Position numbers and translations under genes: made by a program. 64,000 nt of DNA from Cupriavidus basilensis OR16 (GTDB lineage Bacteria; Pseudomonadota; Gammaproteobacteria; Burkholderiales; Burkholderiaceae). The number at the start of each line of letters is the position of its first letter. Position 1 is the stretch's first letter. Location of the stretch: contig NZ_AHJE01000003.1 of NCBI RefSeq assembly GCF_000243095.1, forward strand, positions 1 to 64,000. Reading direction: 5' to 3'. This document shows, in pieces, positions 4,909 to 25,500 of this stretch. Under the pieces are notes generated by a model. The model was given only the letters and a program-made list of their open reading frames with translations. It was not told the DNA's origin and ran no database searches.

Positions 4909-5732
4909 CTGAAATGGCAGACAAGCAACCGGCCAAGGCCGGCACCCAGGTCCCCCCGCCGGCCTATGTGGCCGGCCACCAACTGCTGGCTGGCAAGAGC
5001 GTGCTGATTACCGCCGCCGCCGGCGCGGGCATCGGCTTTGCCGCCGCCCGCCGCTGCGCGGAGGAGGGCTGCCGGGCGCTGATGATCTCCGATATCCACG
5101 AGAAGCGGCTCAGCGAGGCTGTGGCAACCCTGCGCGCCGAGACCGGCCTGCAGGCGATCCATGGCCAGCTTTGTGACGTCTCCGACCAGGCCCAGGTGCG
5201 GTCCCTGGTGGCGGCCGCCGAGGAGGCGCTGGGCGGCACCGATGTGCTGATCAACAACGCCGGGCTGGGCGGCTCGCGCCGCATAGTCGAGATGGACGAT
5301 GCCGAATGGTCGCGGGTGCTCGACATTACGCTTACCGGCACCTTCCGGATGACGCGGGCCATGCTGCCGCATATGCAGGCGCGCCGGCGCGGGGCCATCG
5401 TCAACAACGCCTCGGTGCTGGGCTGGCGGGCGCAGAAGGAGCAGGCCCACTACGCCGCCGCCAAGGCCGGCGTGATGGCGCTGACACGCTGCAGCGCGGT
5501 GGAGGCTGCGGAGTTTGGCGTGCGCATCAATGCGGTGGCGCCGAGTATCGCACTGCACGATTTCCTGCGGAAGTCGGCGCCGGCGGAGTTGCTGCAGGAG
5601 CTGGCCTCGCGCGAGGCGTTCGGGCGGGCGGCCGAGGTGTGGGAGGTGGCGAACGTGATGGTGTTCCTGGCCAGCGATTATGCGTCGTATATGACGGGCG
5701 AAGTGTTGCCTGTCAGCAGTCAGCGGGCGTAG
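4905..5732 (+). CDS. ipdF: IpdF-like short-chain dehydrogenase (steroid C/D-ring catabolism)
   Basis: This 275-residue SDR has cofactor motif TAAAGAGIG (residues 36-44), NNAG at 117-120, Ser170 and Tyr183-x3-Lys187. Segments such as NNASVLGWRAQ, HYAAAKAGVMALTRCSA, EFGVRINAVAPSIA and EAFGRAAEVWEVA match my memory of mycobacterial IpdF (Rv3559c), which oxidises the hydroxyl of 5-OH-HIP-type C/D-ring intermediates. The start at 4905 overlaps the ACAD stop, so it is translationally coupled. Together with the FadA6-like thiolase it is the best evidence that this operon handles the last two steroid rings. The gene looks intact. Confidence 0.78.
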   Translation: MTEMADKQPAKAGTQVPPPAYVAGHQLLAGKSVLITAAAGAGIGFAAARRCAEEGCRALMISDIHEKRLSEAVATLRAETGLQAIHGQLCDVSDQAQVRSLVAAAEEALGGTDVLINNAGLGGSRRIVEMDDAEWSRVLDITLTGTFRMTRAMLPHMQARRRGAIVNNASVLGWRAQKEQAHYAAAKAGVMALTRCSAVEAAEFGVRINAVAPSIALHDFLRKSAPAELLQELASREAFGRAAEVWEVANVMVFLASDYASYMTGEVLPVSSQRA

Positions 5733-10862: not shown

Positions 10863-10921
10863 GCGAGCGTGCTGCCCGCTGGCGCAGGCCTGAAGCGGCG
10901 CTTCGCGCGGCAGGCCGGTCC

Positions 10922-10942
10922 TAGTCCGAAGGGACGATGAAG
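10922..10942 (+). promoter_or_regulatory. Dyad promoter motif, copy A (kshA)
   Basis: The sequence TAGTCCGAAGGGACGATG contains a perfect GTCC-GAAG-GGAC inverted repeat. A -10-like TATCGT starts 38 bp after the motif start, and the kshA ATG lies 115 bp downstream. Five more copies in this window have the same geometry, so I read it as an activator site overlapping the -35 region. Confidence 0.7.
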
Positions 10943-11036
10943 TGCACGTGCCCGGTCCGTATCGTGGTGCATGGCCCAAGGTCCGGCGCCGGGGCGCCCG
11001 GGCGCGGCGGGCCACATAGAACTATCAGGAGAAGAC

Positions 11037-11980
11037 ATGTCCACACAAGGCTACAAGATTGAAAATATCAAGATCATCGACGGCTATTGCCCGCACATGG
11101 GCGCGGATCTCAGCACCGGCACCGTGCAGGGCGACATATCGCCTGCCCGTTCCATGGCTGGCAATGGGGCGGCGACGGTGGCTGCAAATCGATTCCCTAC
11201 TGCAAGCGCGTGCCGCCCAAGGCGCGCATCGGCAGCTGGACCACTTGCGAGCAGAACAAGCTGCTGTTCATCTGGCATGACCCGCAAGGCAACGCGCCGC
11301 CACCGGAAGTGGCCATCCCGCGCATCGAGGCGTGCTTTTCCGAAGCGTGGTCGGAGTGGGCGCTGGACAAGATGCTGATCCACACCAACTGCCGCGAGCT
11401 GGTCGACAATATCTCCGACATGGCGCACTTCGGCACCGTGCACGGTGCCCCGGTCGATTACTTCGCCAACCTGTTCGAGGGCCACAAGGGCACGCAGCTG
11501 ATAGTTGGCCGCAGCGCCAGGCTCTCCGGCGAAGACCAGCTGACCGCGCTCTCCACCTACTTCGGCCCCGCGTACCACATCACGGAAATGAGCGGGCGCA
11601 TGGGCGACCAGCCCATCCACTCCATCCTGCTCAACTGCCATGTGCCGGTGGATGCCAACAGCTTCGAGCTGCGCTACGGGGTGCTGGTCAAGCGCGTGCC
11701 GGGCCTGTCGGAAGAGCAGAACCGCGCCGTGGCGCAGGCGTACGTGGAGCAGGCGCGCGGCGCCTTCTACGAGGACGTGGCGATCTGGGACAGCAAGATC
11801 CGCATCGACAACCCGCTGCTGTGCGAGGGCGATGGGCCGATCTACCAGATGCGCGACTGGTACGGGCAGTTCTACACGGACAGTGAAAGCGTGCGGTCGG
11901 GCAGTGTGGCGCGGCGCGAGTTCGAGCTCAATATTGCCGGGATCGAACCGCCGGCGTTGCATCACGTGTTTGAGGGGTAG
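11037..11980 (+). pseudogene. kshA: KshA-like 3-ketosteroid 9-alpha-hydroxylase oxygenase, deleted and frameshifted
   Basis: This is a Rieske non-haem iron oxygenase of the KshA type. The Rieske ligands are split: CPHMG in the first frame and CPFHGW in the second. The catalytic domain has NCRELVDNISDMAHFGTVH (iron histidines), then YEDVAIWDSKIRIDNPLL with the likely aspartate, closely recalling KshA. Two lesions are visible. Near 11055 MSTQGYKIENI runs straight into KIIDGYCPH, so about 40 residues of the Rieske domain seem deleted in frame. Near 11134 one C is lost ('gacatatc' for 'gaccatatc'). KshA hydroxylates C9 of 3-ketosteroids, opening ring B with KstD. No KshB reductase gene is in the window. 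Confidence 0.8.
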
Positions 11981-11984
11981 GCGT

Positions 11985-12018
11985 GCAGGCTGCGGCGGGC
12001 TGGCCAGCCGCAGCCTGC
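11985..12018 (+). terminator. Hairpin downstream of kshA
   Basis: GCAGGCTGCGGC and GCCGCAGCCTGC form a perfect 12-bp stem with a 10-nt loop, beginning 5 bp after the kshA stop. No U-tract follows, so it may be a weak terminator or a 3'-end stabiliser. Confidence 0.5.
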
Positions 12019-12072
12019 CGCATCTGGCCGGCGCTGCTTTACGGCAAAGCGTCTCGCCGGTTCCGGGAGCCG

Positions 12073-12468
12073 TTACCAGATCGTCTTGACGTGCGGGTAG
12101 GCGCGGATCTTCTCGTCCTTCGTCACCAGCGGCACGGAGAACTTGCGCGCGGTGGCCACGATCATGCGGTCGGCCGGATCCTTGTGGAATACGCCCGGAA
12201 GTTCTACTGACTTGATGGCGATCTCGGTATCCACGGGTACTACGCGCACCGCTTCAAGCTGCCCCACGGTGGCGAACCAGCTCGTCGCATCCATCGAAAG
12301 CACAAGGCGCTCGCGCGCCACCAGCGCTGCGATTTCCCATGCGGAAATCGATGAGACCAGTATCTGGCCGCCGTCCAGTTCCTTCTCAATGCTCGCCTTG
12401 GCCTTCCTGCTCAGCAGCGGATCGCCGCTCACCCACCAGACGAGCGTGTGCGTGTCCAGGACGATCAC
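12073..12468 (-). CDS. vapC: VapC-type PIN-domain toxin
   Basis: This 131-residue PIN-domain ribonuclease has the acidic metal-binding residues in place: LDTH at the N-terminus (Asp5), WEIA (Glu near 45), KDPADR (Asp near 97) and TKDEKI (Asp near 117). The GTG start at 12466-12468 overlaps the antitoxin stop (GTGA), so translation is coupled. VapC enzymes cut RNA, often tRNA, when free of antitoxin. The toxin looks intact while its antitoxin frame is interrupted, which is unexpected and discussed under findings. Confidence 0.88.
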   Translation of the reverse strand: MIVLDTHTLVWWVSGDPLLSRKAKASIEKELDGGQILVSSISAWEIAALVARERLVLSMDATSWFATVGQLEAVRVVPVDTEIAIKSVELPGVFHKDPADRMIVATARKFSVPLVTKDEKIRAYPHVKTIW

Positions 12469-12716
12469 TGTGCCGCCTCCCAGTCATCCGCGTCCACCGG
12501 CTCGGTCGGTGCGTCGTAGCGCACCACGGAATCGCGCAGGATTTCCAGCGGGCTACGCGAGCTGCTCCGATACGGACGGACCTCGAGGACCGGCTTGCCG
12601 TGGTTGGTCACCACCAGAGGTTCGCCCGAGTCCTCAACCTGGCGGAAGTACTCCAGCGCGTGTGCCTCCTATCCCCTGTGTGCCTTGAAGTCCGATTTTG
12701 AGACTTGCCTCTCCAT
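12465..12716 (-). pseudogene. vapB: Phd/YefM-type antitoxin with in-frame stop
   Basis: This ORF is read on the minus strand. It starts MERQVSKSDFKAH, then has RG-stop-EAH, and continues ALEYFRQVEDSGEPLVVTNHGKPVLEV to the stop at 12465-12467. The family sequence runs FKA(H/R)ALEYFRQVE without interruption. The extra 18 bp (about 12667-12684) lie between two GGCACAC direct repeats and carry a TAG codon. The insert also creates AGGAGG eight bases before an in-frame CTG, so translation could restart there and lose the first 20 residues. Read literally, full-length antitoxin is not made. Confidence 0.75.
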
Positions 12717-12863
12717 ATCTGCTCCTGGTCATATGTCTATGGTCATATATTCTAAATGAAGATGGCCGGGAGGCTTGGCTATTCTTTGACGGCAGGTGAT
12801 GAAACAGGCATCTGCCCTGGTCACGGTAGGCGGCCAGGGCAAATATGGGGTTGCCGCGTCCCG

Positions 12864-13886
12864 TCAAGCCATCAACCCACGCTCCCGCGCCAGCGTCATG
12901 GCGGTGTCCTCGATCATGTCTTCCTGCCCACCCACCAGGCGCTGGCGCCCCAGCTCAACCAGGATCTCGCGCGCCGGAATGCCGTACTTGGCCTGGGCGC
13001 GCTTGGCGAACAAGAGGAACGACGAATACACGCCGGCGTAGCCCAGCGTGAGTGCATCGCGGTCGATGCGGATCGGCTGGTCCATGATGGGCACCACCAG
13101 GTCTTCGGCCACGTCGGCAATGCGGAACACATCCACGCCGGTCTCGATGCCCATGCGCTCGCAGACCGCCACGAAGACTTCCATCGGCGTGTTGCCGGCG
13201 CCGGCGCCCAGCCCGGCGGCTGCCGCGTCGATGCGGGTGGCGCCGCAGGCCACGGCCGCCAGCGAGTTGGCGATCCCCATGGCGAGGTTGTGGTGGCCGT
13301 GGAAACCCAGTTCGGTGTCCGGCTTGAGCGCCTGGCGCACGGCCGTCAGCTTGGCGGTGACGTCGTGCGGCAGCATATGCCCCGCGGAATCGGTGATGTA
13401 GAGGCAGTTGGCGCCATAGGACTCCATCAGCAGTGCCTGTTCCACCAGCTTCGCCACCGGCGCCATGTGCGCCATCATCAGGAAGCCCACGGTGTCCATG
13501 CCGAGCTTGCGTGCCATGCCGATATGCTGCTCGGAGACATCGGCCTCGGTGCAGTGGGTGGCTACGCGGATGGTGTGCACGCCCAGTTCATGCGCCATGC
13601 GCAGGTGGTCGATGGTGCCGATGCCGGGCAGCAGCAGGGCGGAGACCTTGGCCTGCTTGAGTTCGCCCAGCACGGCTTGCAGGTATTCCTCGTCGCTATG
13701 CGCGGGAAAGCCGTAGTTGACCGAGGCGCCGCCCAGGCCGTCGCCATGGGTCACTTCGATCAGCGGCACGCCGGCGTCGTCCAGGCCGCGGGCGATCGTC
13801 TTCATCTGGTCGAGCGAGATCTGGTGGCGCTTCGGGTGCATGCCGTCGCGCAGGGTCATGTCGTGCACGGTAATGCGTTGGCTCAT
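12864..13886 (-). CDS. tesG: 4-hydroxy-2-oxovalerate/oxohexanoate aldolase
   Basis: This 340-residue DmpG/BphI/HsaF-family class II aldolase has the N-terminal [12 protein letters not shown] with catalytic Arg-Asp, the metal-site [11 protein letters not shown] histidines and the C-terminal communication domain. It splits 4-hydroxy-2-oxoacids to pyruvate plus an aldehyde and channels the aldehyde to the acylating dehydrogenase encoded just upstream. The start at 13886 is favoured by AGGAGCCCGAC before it. Order on the minus strand is hydratase, dehydrogenase, aldolase, 10 bp apart here. The steroid assignment (TesG/HsaF rather than BphI) rests on neighbours. Intact. Confidence 0.88.
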
Positions 13887-13896
13887 GTCGGGCTCC

Positions 13897-14808
13897 TTAT
13901 GCGGTAGTGGCCACGGCGGGCAGCGCGCCGCGCAACATGGCGGCGCCAATGCGCTCGGCGGTGCGGGCGGCGGCGGCGGTCATGATGTCGAGATTGCCGG
14001 CGTACTTGGGCAGGTAGTCGCCCAGGCCCTCGACTTCCATGAAGATGGAGACGCGCTTGCCATCGAAGACAGGGCCGTTCTTGAGCGTGTAGCCGGGCAC
14101 GTACTGCCGCACCTCGGCAATCATGTCGTGGACCGACGCCGTGATGGCGTCCACGTCTGGTTCGTCCTCGGTCAGGCAGTGGATGGTGTCGCGCATGATG
14201 AGCGGGGGCTCGGCCGGGTTGATGACGATGATGGCCTTGCCCTGCCGCGCGCCGCCCACTTGTTCGATGGCGCCGGCGGTGGTGCGGGTGAACTCGTCGA
14301 TGTTCCGGCGCGTGCCAGGCCCGACCGAGCGCGAGGAAACGGTGGCGACGATCTCGCCATAGGCCACCGCCTGCACGCGCGACACGGCGTACACCATGGG
14401 AATGGTCGCCTGGCCGCCGCAGGTGACCATATTGACGTTCATGGCATTGCTGCCGAGATGTGCATCCAGGTTGACCGGCGGCACGCAGAAGGGGCCAATG
14501 GCCGCCGGCGTCAGGTCGATCACGCGCACGCCGCGCGCGGTGAGCTGGTCGGAGTGCTGGCGGTGCACGTAGGCCGAGGTCGCATCGAAGGCGATGCGGA
14601 TGTCGTCCGCGGCCAGGTGCGGCAGCAGGCCATCGAGGCCCTGGTCGGTCGTCTTCAGGCCCAGATCGCGGGCCCGGGCGAGGCCGTCGGAGGCCGGGTC
14701 GACGCCGACCATCCACACCGGTTCCAGAATGGTGCTGCGGCGCAGCTTGTAGAGCAGATCGGTGCCGATATTGCCGGGACCGATCAGGGCACACTTGATT
14801 TTTGCCAT
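13897..14808 (-). CDS. tesF: Acetaldehyde/propionaldehyde dehydrogenase (acylating)
   Basis: This 303-residue DmpF/BphJ/HsaG-family enzyme oxidises the aldehyde released by the aldolase to acyl-CoA using NAD and CoA. The NAD fold starts at GPGNIGTDL (residues 9-17). The catalytic cysteine is in [13 protein letters not shown] (about Cys127). A ribosome binding site (GGAAGCCCC) precedes ATG 14808. It is spaced 37 bp after the hydratase and 10 bp before the aldolase, as in classical meta-cleavage operons. Intact. Confidence 0.9.
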
Positions 14809-14845
14809 GGGGCTTCCTTGCTTGGAGCGGGCAGGGTGGGAGAGG

Positions 14846-15628
14846 TCAGGTAAAGCGGGTGCTGCAACTGCCGATGCCGTCGATGCGCAGGTGCAGGCGG
14901 TCTCCGGCAACGACCGGAATCAGGGCCGCGAGCGAGCCGGACAGGATGGCCTCGCCGGCGAGCAGGCTGATGCCGAGCTCGCCCAGCGTATTGGCCAGCC
15001 AGGCCACCGCTTCGGCGGGATGGCCGAGGGCGGCGCTGCCTAGCCCGGTGGCGACTACGGCGCCGTTCTTTTCCAGCGTCATGGCACAGGCGGCAAGGTC
15101 GAGGCCGTCTAGGCGCACGCGCTCCTCGCCCAGCACGTAGGCGCCACAGGAGGCGTTGTCGGCCACGGTGTCCTCGATGCGGATGCGCCAGTCGAGGATG
15201 CGCGAATCGACGATCTCGAAGCAGGCGCAAACCGCTTCGGTGGCGGCCAGTACGTCGGCGCGGGTCACGCCGGGGCCGCGCAGGTCGCGCTGGAGGAAGA
15301 AGGCGATCTCGCCTTCGGCGCGCGGCTGGATCAGCGTGGCGGCGGGGATGGCGTGGCCGTCGGGATAATGCATGCTGGCCAGCAGCATGCCGAAATCGGG
15401 CTGGTGCACGTCCAGCATCTGCTGCACCGGCAGGCTGGTGACGCCAATCTTCTTGCCGGTGATGCGGTCGCCCTGCGCCAGCCGGTGCGCGACGAATTGC
15501 TGCTGGATGCGGTAGGCGTCGCGCACCGTGATCGGGTGGCCGCGTCCGCTCAGGGGTGCGACCGGCACGCGCGCGCTCAGCGCCTGGTGGAGTTCCTCGC
15601 CTAGCGAGGCGATCAGGTCAGGTTTCAT
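14846..15628 (-). CDS. tesE: 2-hydroxypenta/hexa-2,4-dienoate hydratase
   Basis: This 260-residue MhpD/BphH/HsaE-type hydratase has the typical [26 protein letters not shown]-terminus, metal ligands in EGEIAFFL and the region [13 protein letters not shown]. It converts the dienoate from the meta-cleavage hydrolase into the aldolase substrate. ATG 15628 is chosen because the family begins here, although the upstream DUF1329 frame runs into it without a stop because of a lesion near 15757. First of three contiguous meta-pathway genes on the minus strand. Confidence 0.87.
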
Positions 15629-15713
15629 GGCTGGAAGGGACTTGAGGCCCGCGGCGGACCGATGCCGTCGGCATGGGTCCGCGCGAGCCTGCGGTGGGGC
15701 CGAGGGGCCGGTA

Positions 15714-17032
15714 TCAGGTGCCCGAGCCGCGCGCGGCGTCCGGCGAGAAGTAGGACCAAAGTAGGCGCCCGACACCAGGTCGTGATAGAAGGCCGTGGTC
15801 GTGTAGAAGCGCTGGGCATCATAGGCGTACACGGAGCCGGCCAGGTTGACGCGCCACAGCTGTCCGCGAGCGTCATAGTTCTCGGCGATCACGGCGTTCC
15901 AGCTGTCCTCGTCGATGTACAGCACCCGCTTGGCGTACTGGTGGCGGAAGCCCTCCTTGAGCGAGGCCTCCAGCACCCACACGCGATGCAGCTCGTAGCG
16001 CATGAGCTCCGGGTTGGCGTGGCCCTTGCCGAGGATGTCCTGGTACTTCACCGCGGCGCTCATCAGCTTGTAGTTGTTGTAGGGCACATAGATTTCCTTC
16101 TTGCCCACCACCTTCCAGTTGTAGCGCTCGCCGGAGCCATTGAAGAGCCGGTCGTCGTCGACGGTACGGAAGCCGCCCGGGCCGGAGGGCTGGTCAAAGC
16201 CGTACTCCGGCGTTTGCCGCACGCGCCGCGTGCCGGGGTTGTATTGCCAGGTGCGGCGGGTGTTGGCGCCTTCCTGGTCCCACAGCTCATAGCCCACCAG
16301 CAGCGTGCCGCGATCGCGCAGCGGCAGGTCGGTAGCCTGGCGGAAGAAGGTCTTGCTGTTGAGTTCGCTCTTCGCGTCGAAGGTGGCCGCGTTGCGGGGC
16401 GAGAAGATGTTGTAGCGCACGCGGCCCCAGGCGATATTGCCGTCCGGGTACACCACCGCCTGGCCGTAGGTGGCCGATTCCGTGCCGATGGCGGCGGCGA
16501 AGCGCAGGTCCCACATCAGCTCCAGGCCATTCTTGGGGATCGGGTAGGGCGCTTGCGGCGGCGCGCTCTTCAGGCCGTTGCCGTCCGCCGTCATGCTGAC
16601 CTCGGGTGCGAGCAGGCGGATGTTCTTGTAAGCCGCGTCCTCGTAGCGGAAATCCCGGTGGCTTGGGTAGACCGGCATCTTGAAGGTGTCGGGGTACTTC
16701 TTGAACAGAGCCTTCGTGCCTTCGGTCAGGTGGTCGGCGTATTGCGCCAGGTTCTGCGCGGTGATGACGGCGAGCGGTTTCTCCGCGGCATAGGGGTCCG
16801 GATAGCGCTCGCCCCGCTTCCACTGCACACCCGCTGGCACGCCGAGCCACTTCCCGCTCCAGGCTGGGATCTGGCCGTCCTTGCTGCCGGGCCGCTCGGC
16901 ACCCATGGGCGTGAGCTTGTCATCGAGCTGCTTGAGCTCGTCCGGTGTGACCTTGGCGTGGGCGCCGACGGCCAGCATCATGCTGGCCGCCAGCAGCGTG
17001 CCGCGGATCGTTCTCTTCGTGTGCTGTTGCAT
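15714..17032 (-). pseudogene. DUF1329 outer-membrane-associated protein, 3' deletion with frameshift
   Basis: It starts at ATG 17032 after CCCAGGAGC. A signal peptide (TIRGTLLAASMMLAVGAHA) is followed by the DUF1329 body (LTPMGAERPGSKDGQIPAWSGKW, YHDLVSGAYF). DUF1329 proteins have a LolA/LolB-like fold by family knowledge and accompany DUF1302 and MMPL genes in degradation clusters, where they are thought to help hydrophobic substrates cross the envelope. After GAYF the frame becomes implausible (PTSRRTPRAARAP). The native ending YFSPDAARGSGT-stop lies in another frame and stops at 15714-15716. About 20 residues look deleted near 15757. As sequenced, the frame runs into the hydratase gene. 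Confidence 0.78.
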
Positions 17033-17069
17033 GGGTGTGCTCCTGGGAATGAAGCCGGCCCTCGCGGGC

Positions 17070-18551
17070 ACTGAGTTCGAGGTTGTTGAGGTACTTGAAG
17101 GTCACGCCCACGCTGGCGCGGCGGTCACCGAAACCGGTTAGGGAGCCGAAGGCGCCGGCGACGGCCGACCTGCCGCTGAGGGCCTGGGAATAGGTGAGGG
17201 GCACCGTCATGTCCCAGCCGTCGAAGACATTGTTGTAGGTCAGCGACCAGCCCAGCTGCAGCGCCGCCGAGTTGGTGGTGTTGGTCAGCGTGCTGAAGCC
17301 GTTGACCGGGGTCACGTCGACCACGTGCTGGTAGGCGATTTCGCCGAGCAAGCTCTGCGAGTTGGCCAGGAAGCTCGGTCCGATGGCGTAGATTGCCGAG
17401 ACCTGCCCCTGCAGCACCTTGCCGCGGGTGGCGGTGGGCGACCCGGCCACGTTCACCAGGACCGGCACACCGTCCTTGTAGCTGACTTCGCCGGCGATAT
17501 TGGCGCCGAGCATCTGGGTGGAGAAGCTCGCGCCGGTCAGGTTGATGTCGCCGAAGAACTTCTGCTGGTATTGCAGTGTCGGGAACAGCGAGGTCACCAC
17601 GCTCGGGTTCTTGTCGTGGTAGTGCAGCTGGTACAGGCCGAGTTCGGTGTCGCCGAATACGCGAAAGCGCGTGCCCAGGCCCCACTGGCCGGAGTTGGAC
17701 GGGTTGATATCCGGCCCGCGCGGGATCTGGAAGCCGCCCGGGCCGATGATGTACTGCGCACCGGGGCCGACGATATCGCTGGTGCTGAAGTAGCTGCCGG
17801 GCGCGCTCAGCTGGTTGGACTTGTAGGTGAACTGGTAGTAGCCGAGCAGGCTGATGTCGGGATTGACCTGCCATTGCAGCGCTAGCTGGGGTACCGGCAG
17901 CAGGATGTCCTTGACCTCGGCGCCCGGCACGAAGGACTTGGTGGCGTCCGCGGGGCCTTGGGCGCCGGCGATATTGGGAAAGAACAGGCTCTCGCCCCAT
18001 GCCACCACCTGGTTGCCGACCTTGACGTTCAGGCGCGTGCTGTCGATGCCGAAGGTGCCGTAGGCGTAGGCGTCCAGCAGTTGCGCGCGCTGGCCGTGGT
18101 AGTAGCGCGCCGAATCGGTGAACTCGTTGAAGGCGCCGCTGTGGTTGACGGTGGAGGGCGCATCGTTGGCGTTCGACGTGCGGTAGGCGCGGTCGTAGAA
18201 GGCGCTGCCGCGCACGAACACGCCAAACTCTCCGCGCTGGAGATTGGCTTCGCCAAGCAGGGTGGCACGGTTGGCGATCATGTCGCCGCGCTTGAAGTTA
18301 CGGTCGCCATCGTCGCCATTGACGTTGGACGGCGACAGCAGCGCGCCGCTCTGCGCGCCGGTGCGGACCGCGGCGCCGTAGGTGGCGGTAAAGGAGTAGT
18401 TCAGCGTCGTATCGTTGCCGAGATCGATGGTGTTGCCGGCCCAGGCGGACGGCGTGATCGCCGCGGCGATGGCCGAAACGATGGCGGCTGGCCGTAGCCT
18501 GCGTGCGCGATGCGATGAAGCCTGCGGTGAACCCGTCTGTGATGCTTGCAT
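17070..18551 (-). pseudogene. DUF1302 outer-membrane protein, C-terminus lost
   Basis: This porin-like DUF1302 protein has a signal peptide ending ITPSAWA, then many amphipathic beta strands (YSFTATYGAAVR, WGESLFFPNIAGAQG, LGYYQFTYKSNQL). The last native piece is FKYLNNLELS at about 17070-17100. Members normally end with further strands and an aromatic final residue. Here the frame enters the DUF1329 leader in a wrong frame and stops at 16920. So about 30 terminal residues and the intergenic region seem deleted, which should block barrel assembly. It heads the leftward operon and has motif copy E about 100 bp upstream. A role in uptake of sterol-like compounds is inferred. Confidence 0.78.
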
Positions 18552-18649
18552 GTGTCTCCCCTATGGTGTTGGTGATGCGCGGTGATGCATTGACCTGGCA
18601 CGTCTTGTTGCTTTTCTTTGATGGGAAGCGTAATGACCGGGGCAGGGCG

Positions 18650-18670
18650 CGGAATCGTCAGAACGGACTA
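18650..18670 (-). promoter_or_regulatory. Dyad promoter motif, copy E (DUF1302 operon)
   Basis: Read on the minus strand the sequence is TAGTCCGTTCTGACGATTCC. A -10-like CATTAC starts 35 bp after the motif start, and the DUF1302 ATG is about 100 bp downstream. It is back to back with copy B, making a divergent control region at 18552-18818. Confidence 0.65.
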
Positions 18671-18718
18671 GACGGTTTCCCCTAGGCGATGGCGAACGGC
18701 CGCACTCGCGCATGCCGC

Positions 18719-18739
18719 TAGTCCGAACGGAGGATGAAG
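18719..18739 (+). promoter_or_regulatory. Dyad promoter motif, copy B (SDR gene)
   Basis: TAGTCCGAACGGAGGATGAAG has the TCC-GAAC-GGA core. A -10-like GATAGC starts 36 bp after the motif start. The SDR start codon is 100 bp downstream. Confidence 0.65.
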
Positions 18740-18818
18740 CGCGGCGGCGTGCGCGATAGCGTCGGGCATCGCCCCGCGCAGCGAGTTCGCGGCGCGGGCA
18801 TCACTGGGGAGGAATGCG

Positions 18819-19685
18819 ATGCGCAGTGCAAAGGAATCCATCGTTGCGGTAGTCACGGGCGGCTCGCGTGGCGCGGGCAAGGGCATCGCGCTGGCGCTGG
18901 CGCAAGCCGGCGCGACGGTGTACGTCACCGGGCGCACCGAGCGCAACGGCGAGGCGCCGTTGCCCGGCACCATCCACGAGACCGCGCGCGAGATCGATGC
19001 GCGCGGTGGCAAGGGCATCGCGGTGGCCTGCGACCATCGCGACGATGCACAGGTGCGCAAGCTGTTCGAGCAGGTGAGCGACGAATCCGGGCGGCTTGAC
19101 ATCCTGGTGAATAACGCCACCTTCCTGCATGACGAACTGATCGAGCCAGGCGGCTTCTGGGAGAAGCCGCTGGCCCTGGTGGATATCCTCGACGTGGGCC
19201 TGCGCTCGGCCTATGTGGCGAGCTGGCATGCGGCGCCCTTGATGGTGGCTGGCGGGCGCGGATTGATGGCGTTCACGTCGTCCTTCGGCGCGAGCTGCTA
19301 TATGCACGGCCCGGCCTACGGCGCGCAGAAGGCCGGCGTGGACAAGTTCGCCAAAGACATGGCGGTCGACCTGCGCCCGCATGGCGTGGCCGCGGTATCG
19401 GTCTGGATGGGCCCGCTGCGCACCGAGCGCACCATGCGGGTCTGGGAGCGCGAGCCCGGCAAATACGCCGCCTTTGCGCCGAGCGCGGAGAGCCCGGAGT
19501 TCACCGGCAAGGTCATACTCGCCTTGCATGGCGACGCCGCCGTCATGGAGAAATCCGGCCAGGTGCTGATCAGCGCCGAGATTGCGCAGGCGTACGGCAT
19601 TCGCGATATCGACGGCAAGGAGCCGGTTTCCTACCGCGCGGTGCTGGGCGGGCCGGTGCAGGCGCATCCGGCCAAGGTCGAGTAG
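18819..19685 (+). CDS. SDR-family oxidoreductase
   Basis: This 288-residue SDR has TGGSRGAGKGIA (residues 13-24) as the cofactor loop and NNAT near 100. The usual YxxxK appears as YGAQKAG near Tyr167, with SSFGA supplying the serine region. A GGGAGGAATGCG region precedes ATG 18819. The C-terminal 30 residues extend past the core. It has its own motif-B promoter divergent from the DUF1302 operon, so it probably acts on the same type of substrate, for example a steroid hydroxyl. The substrate is not determined by sequence. Confidence 0.75.
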   Translation: MRSAKESIVAVVTGGSRGAGKGIALALAQAGATVYVTGRTERNGEAPLPGTIHETAREIDARGGKGIAVACDHRDDAQVRKLFEQVSDESGRLDILVNNATFLHDELIEPGGFWEKPLALVDILDVGLRSAYVASWHAAPLMVAGGRGLMAFTSSFGASCYMHGPAYGAQKAGVDKFAKDMAVDLRPHGVAAVSVWMGPLRTERTMRVWEREPGKYAAFAPSAESPEFTGKVILALHGDAAVMEKSGQVLISAEIAQAYGIRDIDGKEPVSYRAVLGGPVQAHPAKVE

Positions 19686-19701
19686 GCGCGCGCCGGGCGG
19701 G

Positions 19702-20478
19702 TCAGCCGGCCTGGTGGGCTGCCGCGCCGAGGAAGGCCGGGCGCTCGCCGCCACCGTCGATGACCAGGTTGGCGCCCGATACGTAGGTGGCATGCGGCGA
19801 GGCCAGGAACAGGCAGGCGTCGGCGATGTCGCGTGGCGTGGCTAGGCGTCCGAGCGGCACCGTATCGGCCACCTGCTGGAGCGCGGCCGGATCGCCGTAG
19901 TGCTGCTGCTGTGCGGCCTCGGTCAGCACCAGGCCCGGACTCACGGCCGTGACTCGCACGCGCGGGGCCCATTCCACCGCTAGCGAGCGAACCGCGTTCA
20001 GGATGCCCGCCTTGGCCGCGCCGTAGGCGGCGGTGCCGGGTGAGGGCCGCAACGCGCTGACGCTGCCGATGAAGATCTGCGTGCCGCCGCCGGCCTGGGC
20101 CTGCATGCGCGCGTTGGCACGCTGCGCCAATTGCAGCGGCGCCACCAGGTTCAGGCGGATGATCGATTCCATCAGGCGCGGCGAGGCGTCGGCGGCGAGC
20201 GCGAACGGTGCGCCGCCGGCATTGTGGATCACGATATCGAGCGCGCCGGTGCTATCGACGATCCGGGTCAGCAGGGCTTCCACCTGCTCGGCGTCGCGAA
20301 TGTCGGCTGTGATGAACTCCGCGTGTCGGGGCTGCACCCTGTCGATCTCCGGCGGTGTGCGCCCGCAGGTGAACACGCGGGCACCTGCCGCCAGGAAGCC
20401 CTCGGCAATGCCGCGGCCAATGCCGCGCGCGCCACCTGTCACCAACACCGTCTTGCCGCTGAAGTTGAATCCCGTCAT
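19702..20478 (-). CDS. SDR-family oxidoreductase
   Basis: This 258-residue classical SDR has TGGARGIGRGIAEG as the Rossmann motif, HNAGG near 90, GSVSA serine region and YGAAKAG catalytic tyrosine/lysine. It ends with the SDR-typical YVSGANLVIDGGGERP. It is convergent with the SDR at 18819, 16 bp apart, and divergent from the DUF1254 gene at 20659. No copy of the dyad motif faces it. A steroid or hydroxyacyl-CoA substrate is inferred from location only. Intact. Confidence 0.77.
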   Translation of the reverse strand: MTGFNFSGKTVLVTGGARGIGRGIAEGFLAAGARVFTCGRTPPEIDRVQPRHAEFITADIRDAEQVEALLTRIVDSTGALDIVIHNAGGAPFALAADASPRLMESIIRLNLVAPLQLAQRANARMQAQAGGGTQIFIGSVSALRPSPGTAAYGAAKAGILNAVRSLAVEWAPRVRVTAVSPGLVLTEAAQQQHYGDPAALQQVADTVPLGRLATPRDIADACLFLASPHATYVSGANLVIDGGGERPAFLGAAAHQAG

Positions 20479-20547
20479 CTCTGTCTTCCCTTGGTCTCGT
20501 TGCCTTGCTGGTCAGTGCGATCTTAGGGAAATCCACCGGACGCTTCG

Positions 20548-20568
20548 TAGTCTGAAAAGACGATGCAG
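20548..20568 (+). promoter_or_regulatory. Dyad promoter motif, copy C (DUF1254 gene)
   Basis: TAGTCTGAAAAGACGATG has a perfect GTCT-GAAA-AGAC inverted repeat. The -10-like CATGAT starts 39 bp after the motif start. The start codon of the DUF1254 gene is 111 bp downstream. Confidence 0.7.
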
Positions 20569-20658
20569 GGCTTGCGGCCAGGCACGCATGATCGGGCTCG
20601 CTCGTCGCACACATCACCGTGCCACGCCTTTGATCACAACAACACCGAGGCACCAGCC

Positions 20659-22074
20659 ATGTCCGATACGTCGCCGATACTGATAAAAAAAGGCAAACGC
20701 GCTTTTGCCCGCGCTGCCGGCGGCATTGGTGCCGCCTTGTTGCTGGCCTGTGGCATAGGCGGCCAGGCCATGGCCCGGGAGGAGGTCGATACTGCGCTCA
20801 TCCAGCAGGCCTATAACTACGCCTTTCCGCTCTACAAGCTTTCCCAGTATCGCTGGACTGCCTTGGAGACGAGCAACAGCCGCACCAGCACAACGCTGAA
20901 CCGGCTGGCGCATTCCAGGGCGATTGCCACACCACAAGACAGGTGGGCCGCAGCGCCCATTGTGGATGCGCTCTATTCGACCGCATGGATCGACCTGGCG
21001 CGCGGGCCGGTCCTGCTGGACACACCCGACACCCAGGGCCGTTACTACGTACTCACGCTCATTGACTTCTACTCCAACACCTTTTTCTACGCGGGCTATA
21101 GCAGTACGGGCACGCAGGCGCAGAAGTATCTTCTGGCCGGTCCTGCCTGGCAGGGCGAAGTCCCGGCCGGCGCCACCCTGGTGCGTGCGCCTGGCAACGA
21201 CGTCTATGTGAACCTGCGCGTGCTGGTGGACGGCCCGGCGGACCAGAGCGCTGCGAATGCGGTTCAGGACGGCTTCAAGATCACACCGGCCGCAACGGCA
21301 GGCGCAGCTGCCGCGGCGCCGCGCGTCCGGCCCGTTGCGGACGACCCGAAGAATTTCGTGGATGTGGTCAATCAGATGCTGGAGCTCGACCCGCCGCCAG
21401 CGCACGATGCCCGCCTGATCGAGCGCTACCGCGCGATCGGCATCTGCGGCAAGGACTGCAGCTGGGAGCGGTTGCCGGCACCGGTGCAGGCAGCCTGGCG
21501 CGCGGACCACGCGAAGCTTGAGGGGCAGTTTCTTGCGGCCTATATGGCAGCGGGCGCTGCACACGGCTGGATTGAATACAACCCGGCCGGCTCGAAACTC
21601 GGTACCACGCAGATGCGCGACTACGATCTGCGCGCCAGCGCACTGGCGCTCGGCATGGGCATGCTGGGCCTGGCCCGCACCGAGGCGGACTACTGGATCA
21701 CCCTCAGCGACAGCCGGGGCCAAGCGCTCTCGGGCGGCCGGCGCTACCGGCTGAGCCTGCCCCCCGGCGGGCTGCCGGCGCGCGCATTCTGGTCGGTGGC
21801 GTTGTACACGGTGGAGAAGGAGGGCCAGTTCCTGTCGGGCAATGCGCATGACCGTTATCACGTCAGCAGCCGCACGCCTGGACTGGTGGCCAACGCCGAC
21901 GGCACGATCGATATCTGGCTGCAGCCGACGCCGCCCACCGGGCCGCGGCAGGCGAACTGGCTGCCCACCCCGGCAGACGGAGGGCCGTTCGAGCTGTTTG
22001 CCCGCGCCTATGTTCCTGGCGACACGGTGCTGAACGGAGACTTCAAGATGCCTCCGGTGCAGGCGCTGCCGTGA
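20659..22074 (+). CDS. DUF1254/DUF1214-domain exported protein
   Basis: It starts at ATG 20659 (MSDTSP). A positively charged segment and hydrophobic stretch (GGIGAALLLACGIGGQAMA) form a signal peptide, possibly with Cys30 as a lipobox-like residue. The DUF1254 part (YNYAFPLYKLSQYR, DALYSTAWIDLARGPVLL) and the C-terminal DUF1214 part (ARAFWSVALYTVEKEG...NWLPTPADGGPFELFARAY) are in the usual order; 471 residues is normal. Biochemical function of the family is unknown. Motif copy C upstream places it in the same regulon as kshA and the hydrolase. A distant paralogue is at 42983. Confidence 0.8.
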   Translation: MSDTSPILIKKGKRAFARAAGGIGAALLLACGIGGQAMAREEVDTALIQQAYNYAFPLYKLSQYRWTALETSNSRTSTTLNRLAHSRAIATPQDRWAAAPIVDALYSTAWIDLARGPVLLDTPDTQGRYYVLTLIDFYSNTFFYAGYSSTGTQAQKYLLAGPAWQGEVPAGATLVRAPGNDVYVNLRVLVDGPADQSAANAVQDGFKITPAATAGAAAAAPRVRPVADDPKNFVDVVNQMLELDPPPAHDARLIERYRAIGICGKDCSWERLPAPVQAAWRADHAKLEGQFLAAYMAAGAAHGWIEYNPAGSKLGTTQMRDYDLRASALALGMGMLGLARTEADYWITLSDSRGQALSGGRRYRLSLPPGGLPARAFWSVALYTVEKEGQFLSGNAHDRYHVSSRTPGLVANADGTIDIWLQPTPPTGPRQANWLPTPADGGPFELFARAYVPGDTVLNGDFKMPPVQALP

Positions 22075-22127
22075 GCCTGCCAAGCCTCGCGCGCGCCCAC
22101 GCCGGACGCGCGCTGCGCAGCGCTTCG

Positions 22128-22148
22128 TAGTCCGAAAAGACGATGCCC
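22128..22148 (+). promoter_or_regulatory. Dyad promoter motif, copy D (hydrolase gene)
   Basis: TAGTCCGAAAAGACGATG, with GTC-CGAAAA-GAC. The -10-like CATGAT starts 38 bp after the motif start. The hydrolase start is 81 bp downstream. The eight bases before the motif (CGCTTCG) are shared with copy C. Confidence 0.7.
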
Positions 22149-22208
22149 GCCGCGCTGCGCATGCGCATGATTGGCCGGGTTCGTCATGACAACAGGGGAG
22201 ACACCGAC

Positions 22209-23057
22209 ATGTCCAGTACGTCGCCTGCAGTATTACCAGCCGGCCAGACCATCACCACGCCAGACGGCTTGCGCCTGCACTACATCGATGCAGGCACCGG
22301 CGAACCCGTGGTGTTCATCCACGGCAGCGGCCCAGGCGCCAGCGGCCACAGCAACTTCAAGCACAACGCGCCGGCTTTTGCCGCGGCGGGCTTTCGCACC
22401 GTGGTGGTCGACCTGCCGGGCTACGGGCAGTCGTCGAAGCCGGCCGATGTGGAATACACGCTGGACTTCTTCGTGGCCGCGCTGCGCGCGCAATTGCTGG
22501 CGCTGGAACTGCCGCGCTGCGTGCTGGTGGGCAACTCGCTGGGCGGCGCCATCGCGCTGAAATATGCGCTGGACTACCCGGAGCATGTCAGCCGCCTGGT
22601 GATGATGGCGCCAGGTGGCGTCGAAGACCGCGAGACCTATTTCCGCATGGAAGGCATCGAGAAGATGGTGTCGCTCTTCACCGGCGGGCATATGAATCCC
22701 GGCACCATGCGCGAGCTGCTGAAGTTGCTGGTGCATGACGCCACGCTGGTCACCGATGCGCTGGTGGATGAGCGCATGGCCGTGTGCAAGGAGCAGCCGC
22801 GCGAGGTGCTGGCCACCATGAAAGTGCCCAACCTGACCGAACGCCTGGGCGAGATCGCGTGCCCGGTGCTGGGTTTCTGGGGCACGGAAGACCGCTTCAA
22901 CCCCGCCGGTGGCGCCCTCAAGTTCCTGCAGGGGTGCCGCGATGCGCGCTTCGTGCTGATCAATCGCTGCGGCCACTGGGTGATGGTCGAGCACAGCGAT
23001 TACTTCAACCGCGAGTGCCTGGGCTTTCTCGCGGATACGGCCGAGGCCGCGGTGTAG
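22209..23057 (+). CDS. tesD: Alpha/beta hydrolase, meta-cleavage product hydrolase type
   Basis: This 282-residue alpha/beta hydrolase resembles BphD/HsaD/TesD. HGSGPGAS (residues 39-46) forms the oxyanion region, the nucleophile is Ser110 in GNSLGG, the acid is likely Asp in WGTEDRFNP, and the base is His in RCGHWVMVEH. ATG 22209 follows GGGGAG; an earlier in-frame ATG at 22143 lies inside the promoter motif and is not used in my reading. These enzymes hydrolyse the C-C bond of ring-fission products, giving the dienoate that the hydratase at 14846 takes. No extradiol dioxygenase gene is in the window. Intact. Confidence 0.83.
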   Translation: MSSTSPAVLPAGQTITTPDGLRLHYIDAGTGEPVVFIHGSGPGASGHSNFKHNAPAFAAAGFRTVVVDLPGYGQSSKPADVEYTLDFFVAALRAQLLALELPRCVLVGNSLGGAIALKYALDYPEHVSRLVMMAPGGVEDRETYFRMEGIEKMVSLFTGGHMNPGTMRELLKLLVHDATLVTDALVDERMAVCKEQPREVLATMKVPNLTERLGEIACPVLGFWGTEDRFNPAGGALKFLQGCRDARFVLINRCGHWVMVEHSDYFNRECLGFLADTAEAAV

Positions 23058-23114
23058 CATGGCTGTCCGGCCTGCGTGCCGGCAGCGCAAAGATCAATAA
23101 ACCTGGGAGACAAC

Positions 23115-23864
23115 ATGGAATACCCGTTCAACCTGTTCGATCTGCGTGGCAAGGTGGCCGCCATCACGGGCGCCGCGCGCGGCATCGGCGCCGAGACCGC
23201 GCGTGTGCTGGCTGCGGCCGGCGCCAAGGTCGCGGTGCTCGATTTGCTGGAAGCGGACGGCCAGGCCGCCGTGCAGCGCATCGAGGCCGAAGGCGGCCAG
23301 GCCGCCTTTTGGAAGCTGGACGTGTCCAGCGAGCCCGAGGTGGGCAAGGTGTTCGGCGAGATCGCCGCGCGCTTCGGCCGCCTCGATGTCCTGGTCAACA
23401 ACGCCGGCATCGACGGCGTCAACGCGCCGACCCACGAACTCGCGCTGGCGCAATGGCAACGGGTGATGGACGTCAACGTCACCGGCACCTTCCTCTGCAC
23501 CAAGCATGCGATTCCGCATCTTGAGCGCGCGGGTGGCGGCTCGATCGTCAATGTGTCGTCGATGTACGGCATCGTCGGCGGCCCGGACGTGCCGCCGTAC
23601 CACGCCTCCAAGGCGGCGGTGCGGATGATGGCCAAGACCGATGCCATGCATCCGGGCTATATCCGCACGCCGATGCTGGAGGAAGTGGCGCATGCCTCGG
23701 GGCAGGGCGAGGGCCTGTTCGCCTATCTCGGCTCGCAAGCGCCGATGGGCCGCCTTGGCGAGCCGCGCGATATCGCCGCGGGCATCCTCTACCTGGTGTC
23801 CGACGCGGCCCGCTACGTGACCGGCGCGGAACTGGTGATCGATGGCGGCTATACGGCGCGTTGA
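23115..23864 (+). CDS. SDR-family hydroxysteroid/alicyclic alcohol dehydrogenase, short internal deletion
   Basis: This 249-residue SDR (FDLRGKVAAITGAARGIGAETA, NNAGIDG, IVNVSSMYG, YHASKAAV) is close in style to 3-beta/17-beta-hydroxysteroid and cyclopentanol dehydrogenases. Family members read ...MAKTDAL(x)YA(x)xGIRVNSVHPGYIRTPM. Here MAKTDA joins directly to MHPGYIRTPM at about 23641-23648, so some 12 residues of the alpha-F helix and beta-strand are missing in frame. This would damage the fold near the substrate loop. It is 57 bp after the hydrolase and 27 bp before the ketosteroid isomerase, probably in one operon. Confidence 0.78.
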   Translation: MEYPFNLFDLRGKVAAITGAARGIGAETARVLAAAGAKVAVLDLLEADGQAAVQRIEAEGGQAAFWKLDVSSEPEVGKVFGEIAARFGRLDVLVNNAGIDGVNAPTHELALAQWQRVMDVNVTGTFLCTKHAIPHLERAGGGSIVNVSSMYGIVGGPDVPPYHASKAAVRMMAKTDAMHPGYIRTPMLEEVAHASGQGEGLFAYLGSQAPMGRLGEPRDIAAGILYLVSDAARYVTGAELVIDGGYTAR

Positions 23865-23891
23865 GCGACCTTATCTTCAACGAGGAAGGGA

Positions 23892-24299
23892 ATGACCATC
23901 GACACGACCATGACCATGACCGCGAACAAGAGCGCCGCCATGAAGGCCACCTTGCTCGATTACGTGGCCGCTTTCAATGCGGCGGACGCTGAGCGCGTGG
24001 TGGCGCTGTTTGCCGACGACGCGACCGTCGAGGACCCCGTCGGCAGCCCGGTGATAGCCGGGCGGGAGCGCATCCTCGCCTTCTATCGGCACGCGACGTC
24101 GCTCGGCGCGCGCCTGGAGGTGGCGGCGCCGCCGCGGGGGTCGCACGGCAATGCCGCAGCCTTGAGCTTCGCGGTGTATGCGCGGATGCAGGGGCATTCG
24201 GTACGCATCGACGTGACCGATGTGATGACCTTCGGTGCCGACGGGCGCATTACCGGGATGCGCGCGTTCTGGGGGCCGGATGACGTCCATCCACAGTAA
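23892..24299 (+). CDS. ksi: Steroid delta-isomerase (ketosteroid isomerase)
   Basis: This 135-residue SnoaL/NTF2-like protein shares the Comamonas KSI pattern: YVAAFNA, then VALFADDATVEDPVGS and MRAFWG. Catalytic Tyr24, Asp48 and Asp110 correspond to Tyr14, Asp38 and Asp99 of the classical enzyme. KSI moves the steroid double bond from C5 to C4, making 4-ene-3-ketosteroids that KstD and KshA use. ATG 23892 follows GAGGAAGGG. This is the most diagnostic gene for a steroid substrate in the region. Intact. Confidence 0.85.
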   Translation: MTIDTTMTMTANKSAAMKATLLDYVAAFNAADAERVVALFADDATVEDPVGSPVIAGRERILAFYRHATSLGARLEVAAPPRGSHGNAAALSFAVYARMQGHSVRIDVTDVMTFGADGRITGMRAFWGPDDVHPQ

Positions 24300-24317
24300 G
24301 GCGCGTGCCGTACAGCC

Positions 24318-24881
24318 ATGGTGAGGCGTTGTCCGCATGATGCGGCCGTCACGCGCGAGCGCATCCTGGCAAGCGCTGAGTTGCTGTTCGAGCGCCAGGG
24401 CGTGCAATCCGTCACGCTGGAGCAGGTGGCCAGCGCGATAGCCATGACACGCGGCGCGATCTACGGACACTTCCGTAGCCGCGCCGACCTGCTGGCCGCC
24501 GTGATGGCGCGGGCGGAGGCGCATATGGCCGGCCGGCTCGCGGCCTTGGCCGGTTCCGGGCGCAGCCTGGCCCGTCCGAACCTGGAGCGCGCCCTGGCGA
24601 CGATGTTGCAGGACGAGGCCGTGCTGCGCTATGCGGGCATCGTCCTCGGCTTGCTGCATCACGCTTGCACGCCTGAATGCGAGCTTTGTCATCTGACGGT
24701 CCGCATCCGTGCCCGCGGCATGGCGTTGTGCGATGGCCTTGGCAGGCTGCTGGGCGAGCAGGACAAGGGCGCGCTGCTGGCGGCGCATCTATGGGGCCTG
24801 CTGAGCGTCCGTTCACTGCGGCTGGCGCCGGTGGACCTCGCCGGGTGCGTCGGGCCGCTGCTGCAACTCTACGGGGAATAG
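24318..24881 (+). CDS. TetR-family transcriptional regulator
   Basis: This 187-residue regulator has an N-terminal helix-turn-helix (TRERILASAELLFERQGVQSVTLEQVASAIAMTRGAIYGHF, described over residues 12-52) typical of the AcrR/TtgR branch. The C-terminal half has several cysteines (HHACTPECELCH), unusual for the family. It is 18 bp after the ketosteroid isomerase, so probably co-transcribed and a local repressor responding to a hydrophobic effector. Its operator is not evident. Intact. Confidence 0.82.
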   Translation: MVRRCPHDAAVTRERILASAELLFERQGVQSVTLEQVASAIAMTRGAIYGHFRSRADLLAAVMARAEAHMAGRLAALAGSGRSLARPNLERALATMLQDEAVLRYAGIVLGLLHHACTPECELCHLTVRIRARGMALCDGLGRLLGEQDKGALLAAHLWGLLSVRSLRLAPVDLAGCVGPLLQLYGE

Positions 24882-24950
24882 CTGGCGGCGCCCGTGGCGC
24901 TTTGCCGGCATCTCGTTGCGAGTTCCACACGCCTTCGGCGTCTTCCCTGA

Positions 24951-24998
24951 TCCGTCCCCTTGTCCGTCCCCTTATCCATCCCCTCATCCGTCGCCAAT
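24951..24998. repeat. 12-bp tandem repeat, about four units
   Basis: Units TCCGTCCCCTTG, TCCGTCCCCTTA, TCCATCCCCTCA and TCCGTCGCCAAT follow each other in the gap after the TetR gene. The 24882-25199 gap otherwise holds motif copy F and no ORF I can support. Confidence 0.75.
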
Positions 24999-25043
24999 CG
25001 AGTCTTGTCGTACGCAGCGCGCACGGGCGTAGGGGATCGACCC

Positions 25044-25064
25044 TAGTCTGCATGGACGAGGAGG
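25044..25064 (+). promoter_or_regulatory. Dyad promoter motif, copy F (small exported protein)
   Basis: TAGTCTGCATGGACGAGG has the GTCT-GCAT-GGAC dyad. A -10-like GCTTAC/CTTACC starts about 36 bp after the motif start. The next gene begins at GTG 25200. This copy deviates more from the consensus than A, C and D. Confidence 0.55.
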
Positions 25065-25199
25065 TTTTTTCCCCTGGTGCTTACCTTCTAGTCAAGGAAC
25101 CGTGCCCGCGCTAGTGCATCGCCACAGCGTCATAGCACCATAGCGCCACAAGAGCACGGCAGGGGAAGAAAAAGGGATACGAGCAAAGAGGAGGCAGTC

Positions 25200-25454
25200 G
25201 TGAAGGCTCGATATCGCATCACATGCTTGTTGGGAGCCGGCGCCGTGCTGGCGCTGGGTTTCGCCGCCGGCCTGATTTCGGGCCTGCCTCCCACCAGGGA
25301 GGACAGCGCGAGCGAGCGCGTAGCGGCGGGCGCGAGCGCCGCGCCGGAAATCCGGGTGGCGCTGGACGCCGCGCTAAGCGATTGCAACGATGCCTGCCGG
25401 CAGAGCCGGGGCGTCGCGGCTGTGGCGGCGCTGGGTTATCGCCCGCCTCCGTAG
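25200..25454 (+). CDS. Small membrane-anchored or exported protein of unknown function
   Basis: This 84-residue ORF starts at GTG 25200 behind a strong AAAGAGGAGG site. Residues 8-28 (TCLLGAGAVLALGFAAGLISG) are a hydrophobic signal or anchor segment. The remainder is Ala/Ser-rich and contains two cysteines (DCNDACRQSRG). I do not recognise the family. Motif copy F 156 bp upstream suggests it belongs to the steroid-type regulon. Codon use is like its neighbours. Convergent with nasA, 46 bp apart. Confidence 0.6.
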   Translation: MKARYRITCLLGAGAVLALGFAAGLISGLPPTREDSASERVAAGASAAPEIRVALDAALSDCNDACRQSRGVAAVAALGYRPPP

Positions 25455-25500
25455 TACGCAGGTCGCCCTGCAGGCTTGCCCCGGAGCACTGCCTGCTGCC

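Follow-up and report, generated by a model that had tools for sequence, protein, structure and literature searches.

The first 64,000 nucleotides of contig NZ_AHJE01000003.1 of Cupriavidus basilensis OR16, the whole stretch of DNA that we analyzed and refer to as the window, contain a region of steroid-type genes in which six promoters share one dyad motif. This arrangement raises the question of whether the six sites define a regulon and, if so, which protein reads them. Judging from comparative sequence evidence, they are very probably operators of a steroid-degradation regulon read by a LuxR regulator of the TeiR/TesR type, which would act as a class-II-like activator. TeiR/TesR has been known since 2004 as an activator of steroid degradation in Comamonas. 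Here, we describe a conserved, promoter-locked operator together with a candidate regulator that is well supported and belongs to a known family, and we infer from them how these genes would be switched on.

Six copies of a near-palindrome

A motif scan of the window confirmed the 16-base near-palindrome TAGTCYGNNNRGACGA at all six positions where a sequence-only reading of this DNA had placed it; four copies match exactly, and two carry a single mismatch. The sites are as follows, each with the distance from the motif start to the chosen start codon:

10922..10937, plus strand: predicted operator site 1, TAGTCCGAAGGGACGA, exact match, before kshA (ATG 11037, 115 bp)
18655..18670, minus strand: predicted operator site 2, TAGTCCGTTCTGACGA, one mismatch, before the DUF1302 operon (ATG 18551, minus strand, 119 bp); conserved at L078:1636 and L079:9889
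18719..18734, plus strand: predicted operator site 3, TAGTCCGAACGGAGGA, one mismatch, before an SDR gene (ATG 18819, 100 bp); same site in L078 and L079
20548..20563, plus strand: predicted operator site 4, TAGTCTGAAAAGACGA, exact match, between a DUF1254 gene (plus strand; ATG 20659, 111 bp) and an SDR gene (minus strand), and predicted to serve both
22128..22143, plus strand: predicted operator site 5, TAGTCCGAAAAGACGA, exact match, before an HsaD-like hydrolase gene (ATG 22209, 81 bp); identical 16-mer at L079:7994
25044..25059, plus strand: predicted operator site 6, TAGTCTGCATGGACGA, exact match, before a small exported open reading frame (ORF; GTG 25200, 156 bp); TAGTCTGCACGGACGA at L079:5062

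The range of 81 to 156 bp agrees with the earlier estimate of about 80 to 156 bp. The statement that the motif occurs nowhere else in the 64 kb holds at up to one mismatch. One match with two mismatches, at 5284, has a hexamer of the form NANNNT at +22 but sits within an SDR gene, and it was rejected as a further site. Allowing up to three mismatches, we counted 45 matches in the window, where 27.8 would be expected and none of 100 shuffles reaches 45; near-palindromic sites, which are counted on both strands, inflate this figure. A weight matrix run over the 243-kb contig scores the six sites at 21.3 to 27.1 bits and the next site at 13.5, a partly circular comparison because the matrix was trained on the same six sites; the top-scoring chance site in each of 10 simulated contigs lay between 13.7 and 21.5 bits.

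Across the genome, the one-mismatch form is not overrepresented: it has 27 matches, and the reversed pattern has 105, so abundance by itself cannot serve as an argument. Beyond the six sites, the rest of the genome has 2 exact and 19 one-mismatch matches, 3 of which have NANNNT at +22 when judged by eye: two on contig C389, discussed below, and one within a large ORF. One exact match, TAGTCCGCGTAGACGA, recurs in genus g11 and is also found on our strain's contig C400; it looks like coding background, with the copy in our strain lying within an ORF, and was set aside. What distinguishes the motif is its clustering, its promoter spacing, and its conservation.

Promoter geometry, conservation, and polarity

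Each site is followed by a NANNNT hexamer, separated from the end of the 16-mer by exactly 22 bp at five sites and by 23 bp at the site at 20548. Counted from the motif start, the offset is 38 bp in five cases and 39 in one, tighter than the 35 to 39 bp first proposed. The predicted −10 hexamers are the following:

10960..10965, plus strand: TATCGT, 22 bp after site 1
18627..18632, minus strand: TACGCT, 22 bp after site 2
18757..18762, plus strand: TAGCGT, 22 bp after site 3
20587..20592, plus strand: CATGAT, 23 bp after site 4
20520..20525, minus strand: TAAGAT, 22 bp from site 4 on its reverse side
22166..22171, plus strand: CATGAT, 22 bp after site 5
25082..25087, plus strand: TACCTT, 22 bp after site 6

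We examined the same spacing in 80 DUF1302 loci, the best 80 of 90 obtained by searching named genomes for relatives of DUF1302. NANNNT lies at exactly +22 in 29 of the 32 distinct exact copies and in 63 of the 84 distinct copies with at most one mismatch; the second-best offset, +25, accounts for 12/32 and 19/84. These hexamers are presumably −10 elements. If the hexamer covers −12 to −7, the dyad would span −50 to −35 with its center at −42.5; that is, provided that the hexamer is the −10, the dyad stands at a fixed distance from it with its center near −41.5/−42.5. Since the fixed 22-bp spacing puts the center there, a class-II activator site would be the natural reading of the dyad position, and the geometry that the sequence-only reading had suggested gains support from the 29 exact copies at +22. 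Between 10700 and 25400, there are no consensus −35/−10 sigma-70 promoters (mean of 1.8 in shuffles), and a consensus −35 is missing there. The lux box is a class-II activator site centered at −42.5; like it, the dyad described here would overlap the −35 position at a fixed distance from the −10, whereas its sequence differs and its position is given relative to a predicted −10. The StyR/TodT-type operators of LuxR/FixJ-type regulators are 16 bp long; they share the 6-N4-6 dyad but not the half-sites.

A motif held at a fixed distance from a −10-like hexamer could also be the −35 element of an alternative sigma factor. We rejected this reading, which appears extremely improbable: the 22-bp gap exceeds the usual −35/−10 gap of 16 to 18 bp, and the motif is a 16-bp dyad with a hexamer on both sides at 20 of 89 distinct sites.

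These 89 sites, of the form T-x-GTCY-N4-RGAC-x-A, comprise 63 with one A arm and one C arm, 17 symmetric C-C sites, and 9 of other types. Of the A/C sites, 40 have the hexamer on the C-arm side only, 2 on the other side only, 12 on both sides, and 9 on neither; of the C-C sites, 8 have it on both sides, 7 on one, and 2 on neither. Both-sided sites are commoner among C-C sites (Fisher test, P = 0.03) and one-sided A/C sites are strongly polar, at 40 to 2 (P = 4e-10), with both P values overstated because the loci are related. One operator is predicted to serve two promoters. In the window, TAAGAT on the reverse side of the site at 20548 faces the divergent SDR gene at 19702-20478, and this side is a predicted seventh promoter, missed by the sequence-only reading. 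More tentatively, one polarized operator code may apply to the TeiR family throughout Betaproteobacteria, in which the second base of each arm would set the direction: TAGTC...GACGA would fire away from the TAGTC arm, and at the symmetric TCGTC...GACGA a single dimer would serve two divergent promoters. TeiR would then be a one-component DNA-binding steroid sensor and not a kinase.

Motif-hexamer pairs are found at the DUF1302 loci of Cupriavidus, Paraburkholderia, Burkholderia sp. Ax-1719, Neisseriaceae/Crenobacter, Pseudoduganella, and Pseudomonas akapageensis, and many motif copies in relatives adjoin orthologs of window genes. Among the 80 loci, such pairs are missing from most of those of Solimonas and Nevskia and from most of those of Pseudomonas. 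Six selected steroid loci (20 to 140 kb) have 14, 11, 5, 2, 9, and 3 motif-hexamer matches at up to two mismatches, 44 in total, against 0 to 2 in ten permuted consensus controls each; two of these six genomes, G702 and G905, have no exact copies. In a sample of 399 genomes from the order, matches are present in 48, and only the genome of our strain has at least three copies; since no other genome there does, this sample serves as the background. As a separate observation, two Solimonas loci (L144:15391 and L146:15538) have TAGTCGGTTCGGACGA with TAACAT at 21 bp, a possible operator variant.

A TeiR-like candidate regulator

The activator had been predicted to be LuxR- or TetR-like and encoded outside the window or at 24318. 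A profile built from the LuxR domains of our strain's genome retrieved 14 LuxR-type genes with open frames of approximately 390 to 520 codons from 13 of the 80 DUF1302 loci, with two proteins of more than 900 amino acids (L151 and L156) set aside; tblastn added regulators in L107 and a second copy in L096. Taking the regulator of locus L092 as the query, the only strong homolog in our strain is encoded at C389:27638-28731 on the minus strand (64% identity over 336 amino acids), while three other LuxR proteins of this genome reach 24 to 26%. TeiR of Comamonas testosteroni (Q6URL0; entry P0140) is homologous over its full length, sharing 40% identity with the L092 regulator across 375 amino acids, up to 51% with one Paraburkholderia member, the closest tested, and 32% across 270 amino acids with the N-terminal piece of our strain's protein, against 20 to 23% for the three other LuxR proteins. 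The candidate also shares with TeiR/TesR a location with steroid genes, since HsaA-, HsaC-, and KstD-like genes and a FadD3 gene are present on C389.

A C-terminal LuxR-type (GerE) helix-turn-helix (HTH) is indicated by the GerE profile in relatives, by PF00196 on most listed homologs, and by HTH matches in the Protein Data Bank, with StyR (1yio) among the weak ones. The L092 relative, modeled with AlphaFold2 (mean pLDDT 80.5, pTM 0.65), has two N-terminal alpha/beta domains, a long connecting helix, and then the HTH. The model's top Foldseek matches are bacteriophytochromes, followed lower down by DhaR(N) and VqmA; the domains may be GAF-like and PAS-like, names that are tentative because all TM-scores are low. 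In this model of one relative, no kinase domain is evident, and no receiver domain is seen, which sets the regulator apart from StyR/TodT.

We searched for the motif and the regulator (E ≤ 1e-40) in the same 299 genomes of the family. The regulator is present in 53 of them, and all 22 genomes with at least three exact motifs have it: 22/53 with the regulator against 0/246 without (Fisher test, P = 4e-19, a value to be read loosely since it is overstated by the nonindependence of related genomes). Removing TAGTCCGCGTAGACGA leaves 21/53 against 0/246. At least two motifs are found in 31 genomes, 27 of which encode the regulator; the four that do not are G034, G071, G236, and G256. Within our strain's own genus, two or more motifs occur in 15/15 genomes with the regulator and in 0/25 without it, and the contrast is repeated within several genera. 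Because 22 of 22 genomes with at least three exact copies have its gene, the palindrome is the likely landing site of the TeiR-like protein. In a second family (299 genomes, centered on G389; query L102, E ≤ 1e-40), at least one exact motif is present in 7/10 genomes with the regulator against 16/289 without (P = 6e-7), and at least two are present in 3/10 against 1/289 (P = 1e-4).

The loci of the regulators point the same way. Thirty of them contain 35 motif-hexamer matches at up to two mismatches, distributed over 20 loci, and none of 15 permuted consensus controls gave a single match; the 10 loci lacking such a match are 9 of g11 and 1 of g10. In relatives, some matches with one or two mismatches lie 200 to 300 bp upstream of the regulator gene, and from these weaker copies the regulator is predicted to control its own expression. 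Within 41 kb around a plasmid-borne 83% homolog, there is one site at up to two mismatches.

Taken together, these data would fit the following scenario. The TeiR/TesR-type regulator, which probably binds the motif, would dock on the 16-mer as a dimer centered at approximately −42.5. Presumably when a steroid or a metabolite of one is present, it would bring RNA polymerase to these promoters, which have no consensus −35, and thereby switch on steroid breakdown.

Beyond the overstated Fisher value, several points weigh against this assignment. Fewer than two exact motifs are present in 26 of the 53 regulator-bearing family genomes, 23 of them in the Burkholderia-like genus g11, and the nine g11 regulator loci have 4 matches at up to three mismatches, no excess over permuted controls (0 to 5). 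In the second family, none of the 299 genomes has three or more exact copies, and the regions within 1.5 kb of 12 regulators contain 7 matches at up to three mismatches against 0 to 9 in controls. Relatives have several regulator paralogs. No TeiR-like regulator is encoded on the window contig (C414). Our strain's gene on C389 is broken into two frames in the present assembly, by error or as a pseudogene, with its HTH in a separate frame, while homologs in relatives are open. Finally, reviews describe TeiR, in the excerpts of PMC6678751 and PMC8399759, as a polar, kinase-type steroid sensor; the L092 model shows two alpha/beta domains and an HTH. Regarding g11, its genomes keep TeiR-like regulators mostly without the exact motif, and their operator may differ.

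Two candidate readers, the LuxR-type regulator and the TetR-type protein encoded at 24318, were compared by distribution. The TetR gene sits just upstream of site 6, and its product could bind the sites as a local activator or repressor; within the own genus, a homolog accompanies the LuxR-type regulator and at least two motifs in the same 15 genomes. In other genera, 8 genomes have at least three motif copies; every one of them lacks the TetR homolog (E ≤ 1e-25), whereas the LuxR-type regulator is present in 8/8. A gene missing where the motif is abundant is disfavored as its reader, and we regard this alternative as very unlikely. Of the earlier prediction, the LuxR-like activator encoded elsewhere agrees with the co-occurrence data, while the TetR protein at 24318 does not. 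Across the 40 own-genus genomes, the TetR homolog occurs in exactly the 15 that have the LuxR-type regulator, as a cluster-mate.

Another, unrelated regulator that travels with steroid clusters could also read the motif, the LuxR gene being a mere cluster neighbor. Co-occurrence cannot separate genes that travel together, and g11, with the regulator but mostly without the exact motif, would fit such a case. Yet the association spans several genera and two families, relatives have motif copies upstream of the regulator gene itself, and a 6-N4-6 dyad at −42.5 would suit a LuxR-type HTH. We therefore consider an unrelated reader unlikely and favor the TeiR-like regulator.

In C. testosteroni, the LuxR-type TeiR/TesR is required for the induction of steroid genes. 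It is described as a positive regulator in the excerpts of PMC6678751 and PMC6895838. According to a 2021 review (PMC8399759), regulatory mechanisms in bile-acid-degrading Proteobacteria are largely unknown and TeiR acts via a kinase-dependent mechanism; the same text reports that Pseudomonas stutzeri Chol1 has TeiR-like genes. PMC12239570 describes a progesterone cluster that includes a LuxR-type gene. Given these last two sources, the occurrence of TeiR-like regulators outside Comamonas is not in itself new. An excerpt of PMC6895838 cites a report that tesR-like genes are restricted to C. testosteroni strains; further evidence against such a restriction comes from the homologs found here, which accompany steroid genes in Cupriavidus, Paraburkholderia, and others. 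Literature searches, with the primary TeiR papers outside their reach, found no published DNA operator for TeiR, and none is given in the excerpts of PMC6678751, PMC13101464, PMC6394551, PMC12239570, PMC6895838, PMC10637631, and PMC8399759. An operator that keeps a fixed position in the promoter would allow regulon members to be predicted across the genome and direct DNA binding to be tested by one gel shift; it would also offer a handle for steroid biosensors.

Genes behind the sites

The sites on C389 precede the following genes:

7310, minus strand: before an HsaC-like dioxygenase gene
24875, minus strand: before an HsaA-like monooxygenase gene
26215, minus strand: before a luciferase-like monooxygenase gene
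26215, plus strand: before a SurE-like protein gene, hexamer at 21
28997, minus strand: weaker site before the regulator gene, three mismatches, hexamer at 21

For 32 of the 44 steroid-locus sites, the downstream ORF was taken, and 10 of these 32 were scanned. They include two HsaA-like, two HsaC-like, and one HsaD-like protein, one hydroxyphenylacetate-type flavin reductase, and one PaaE-like reductase; the other 3 of the 10 had no match at 1e-60. The Hsa and KstD genes are called "-like" because all model scores fall below curated cutoffs. We take the genes of the window, C389, and the relatives together to represent the 9,10-seco steroid pathway. The regulon first proposed from the six window sites is supported by the spacing, the co-occurrence of motif and regulator, and the genes behind the sites. 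An Rfam search of 10000-26000 returned no match. The window genes concerned are listed below:

11037..11980, plus strand: kshA-type gene, KshA_C (PF19298) and Rieske, in two frames (11037-11378 and 11087-11980)
12864..18551, minus strand: predicted operon of DUF1302, DUF1329 with 2-oxopent-4-enoate hydratase, acetaldehyde dehydrogenase, and 4-hydroxy-2-oxovalerate aldolase
18819..19685, plus strand: SDR gene (PF00106)
19702..20478, minus strand: SDR gene (PF13561), divergent from DUF1254
20659..22074, plus strand: DUF1254/DUF1214 protein (PF06863 and PF06742)
22209..23057, plus strand: alpha/beta hydrolase; top NCBIfam model HsaD at 196 bits, under its cutoff of 400
23076..23864, plus strand: SDR gene (PF13561), downstream of the hydrolase
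24318..24881, plus strand: TetR-type gene (PF00440), upstream of site 6
25200..25454, plus strand: small ORF of 84 amino acids with a signal-like N terminus and a GTG start

Gene order and strand suggest that the genes at 12864..18551 are cotranscribed. Within them, a single open frame of 741 amino acids (14846-17071, minus strand) joins DUF1329 to the 2-oxopent-4-enoate hydratase domain, as a fusion or through a lost stop. The two frames of the kshA-type gene, like those of our strain's regulator gene, may reflect an assembly error or a pseudogene. A possible frame break is also seen at 25501-28313 on the minus strand, where a molybdopterin oxidoreductase extends over two overlapping frames (27351-28313 and 25501-27843). 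On C389, at L163:6572-9040, KstD-like FAD-binding pieces flank a flavin reductase gene on both sides.

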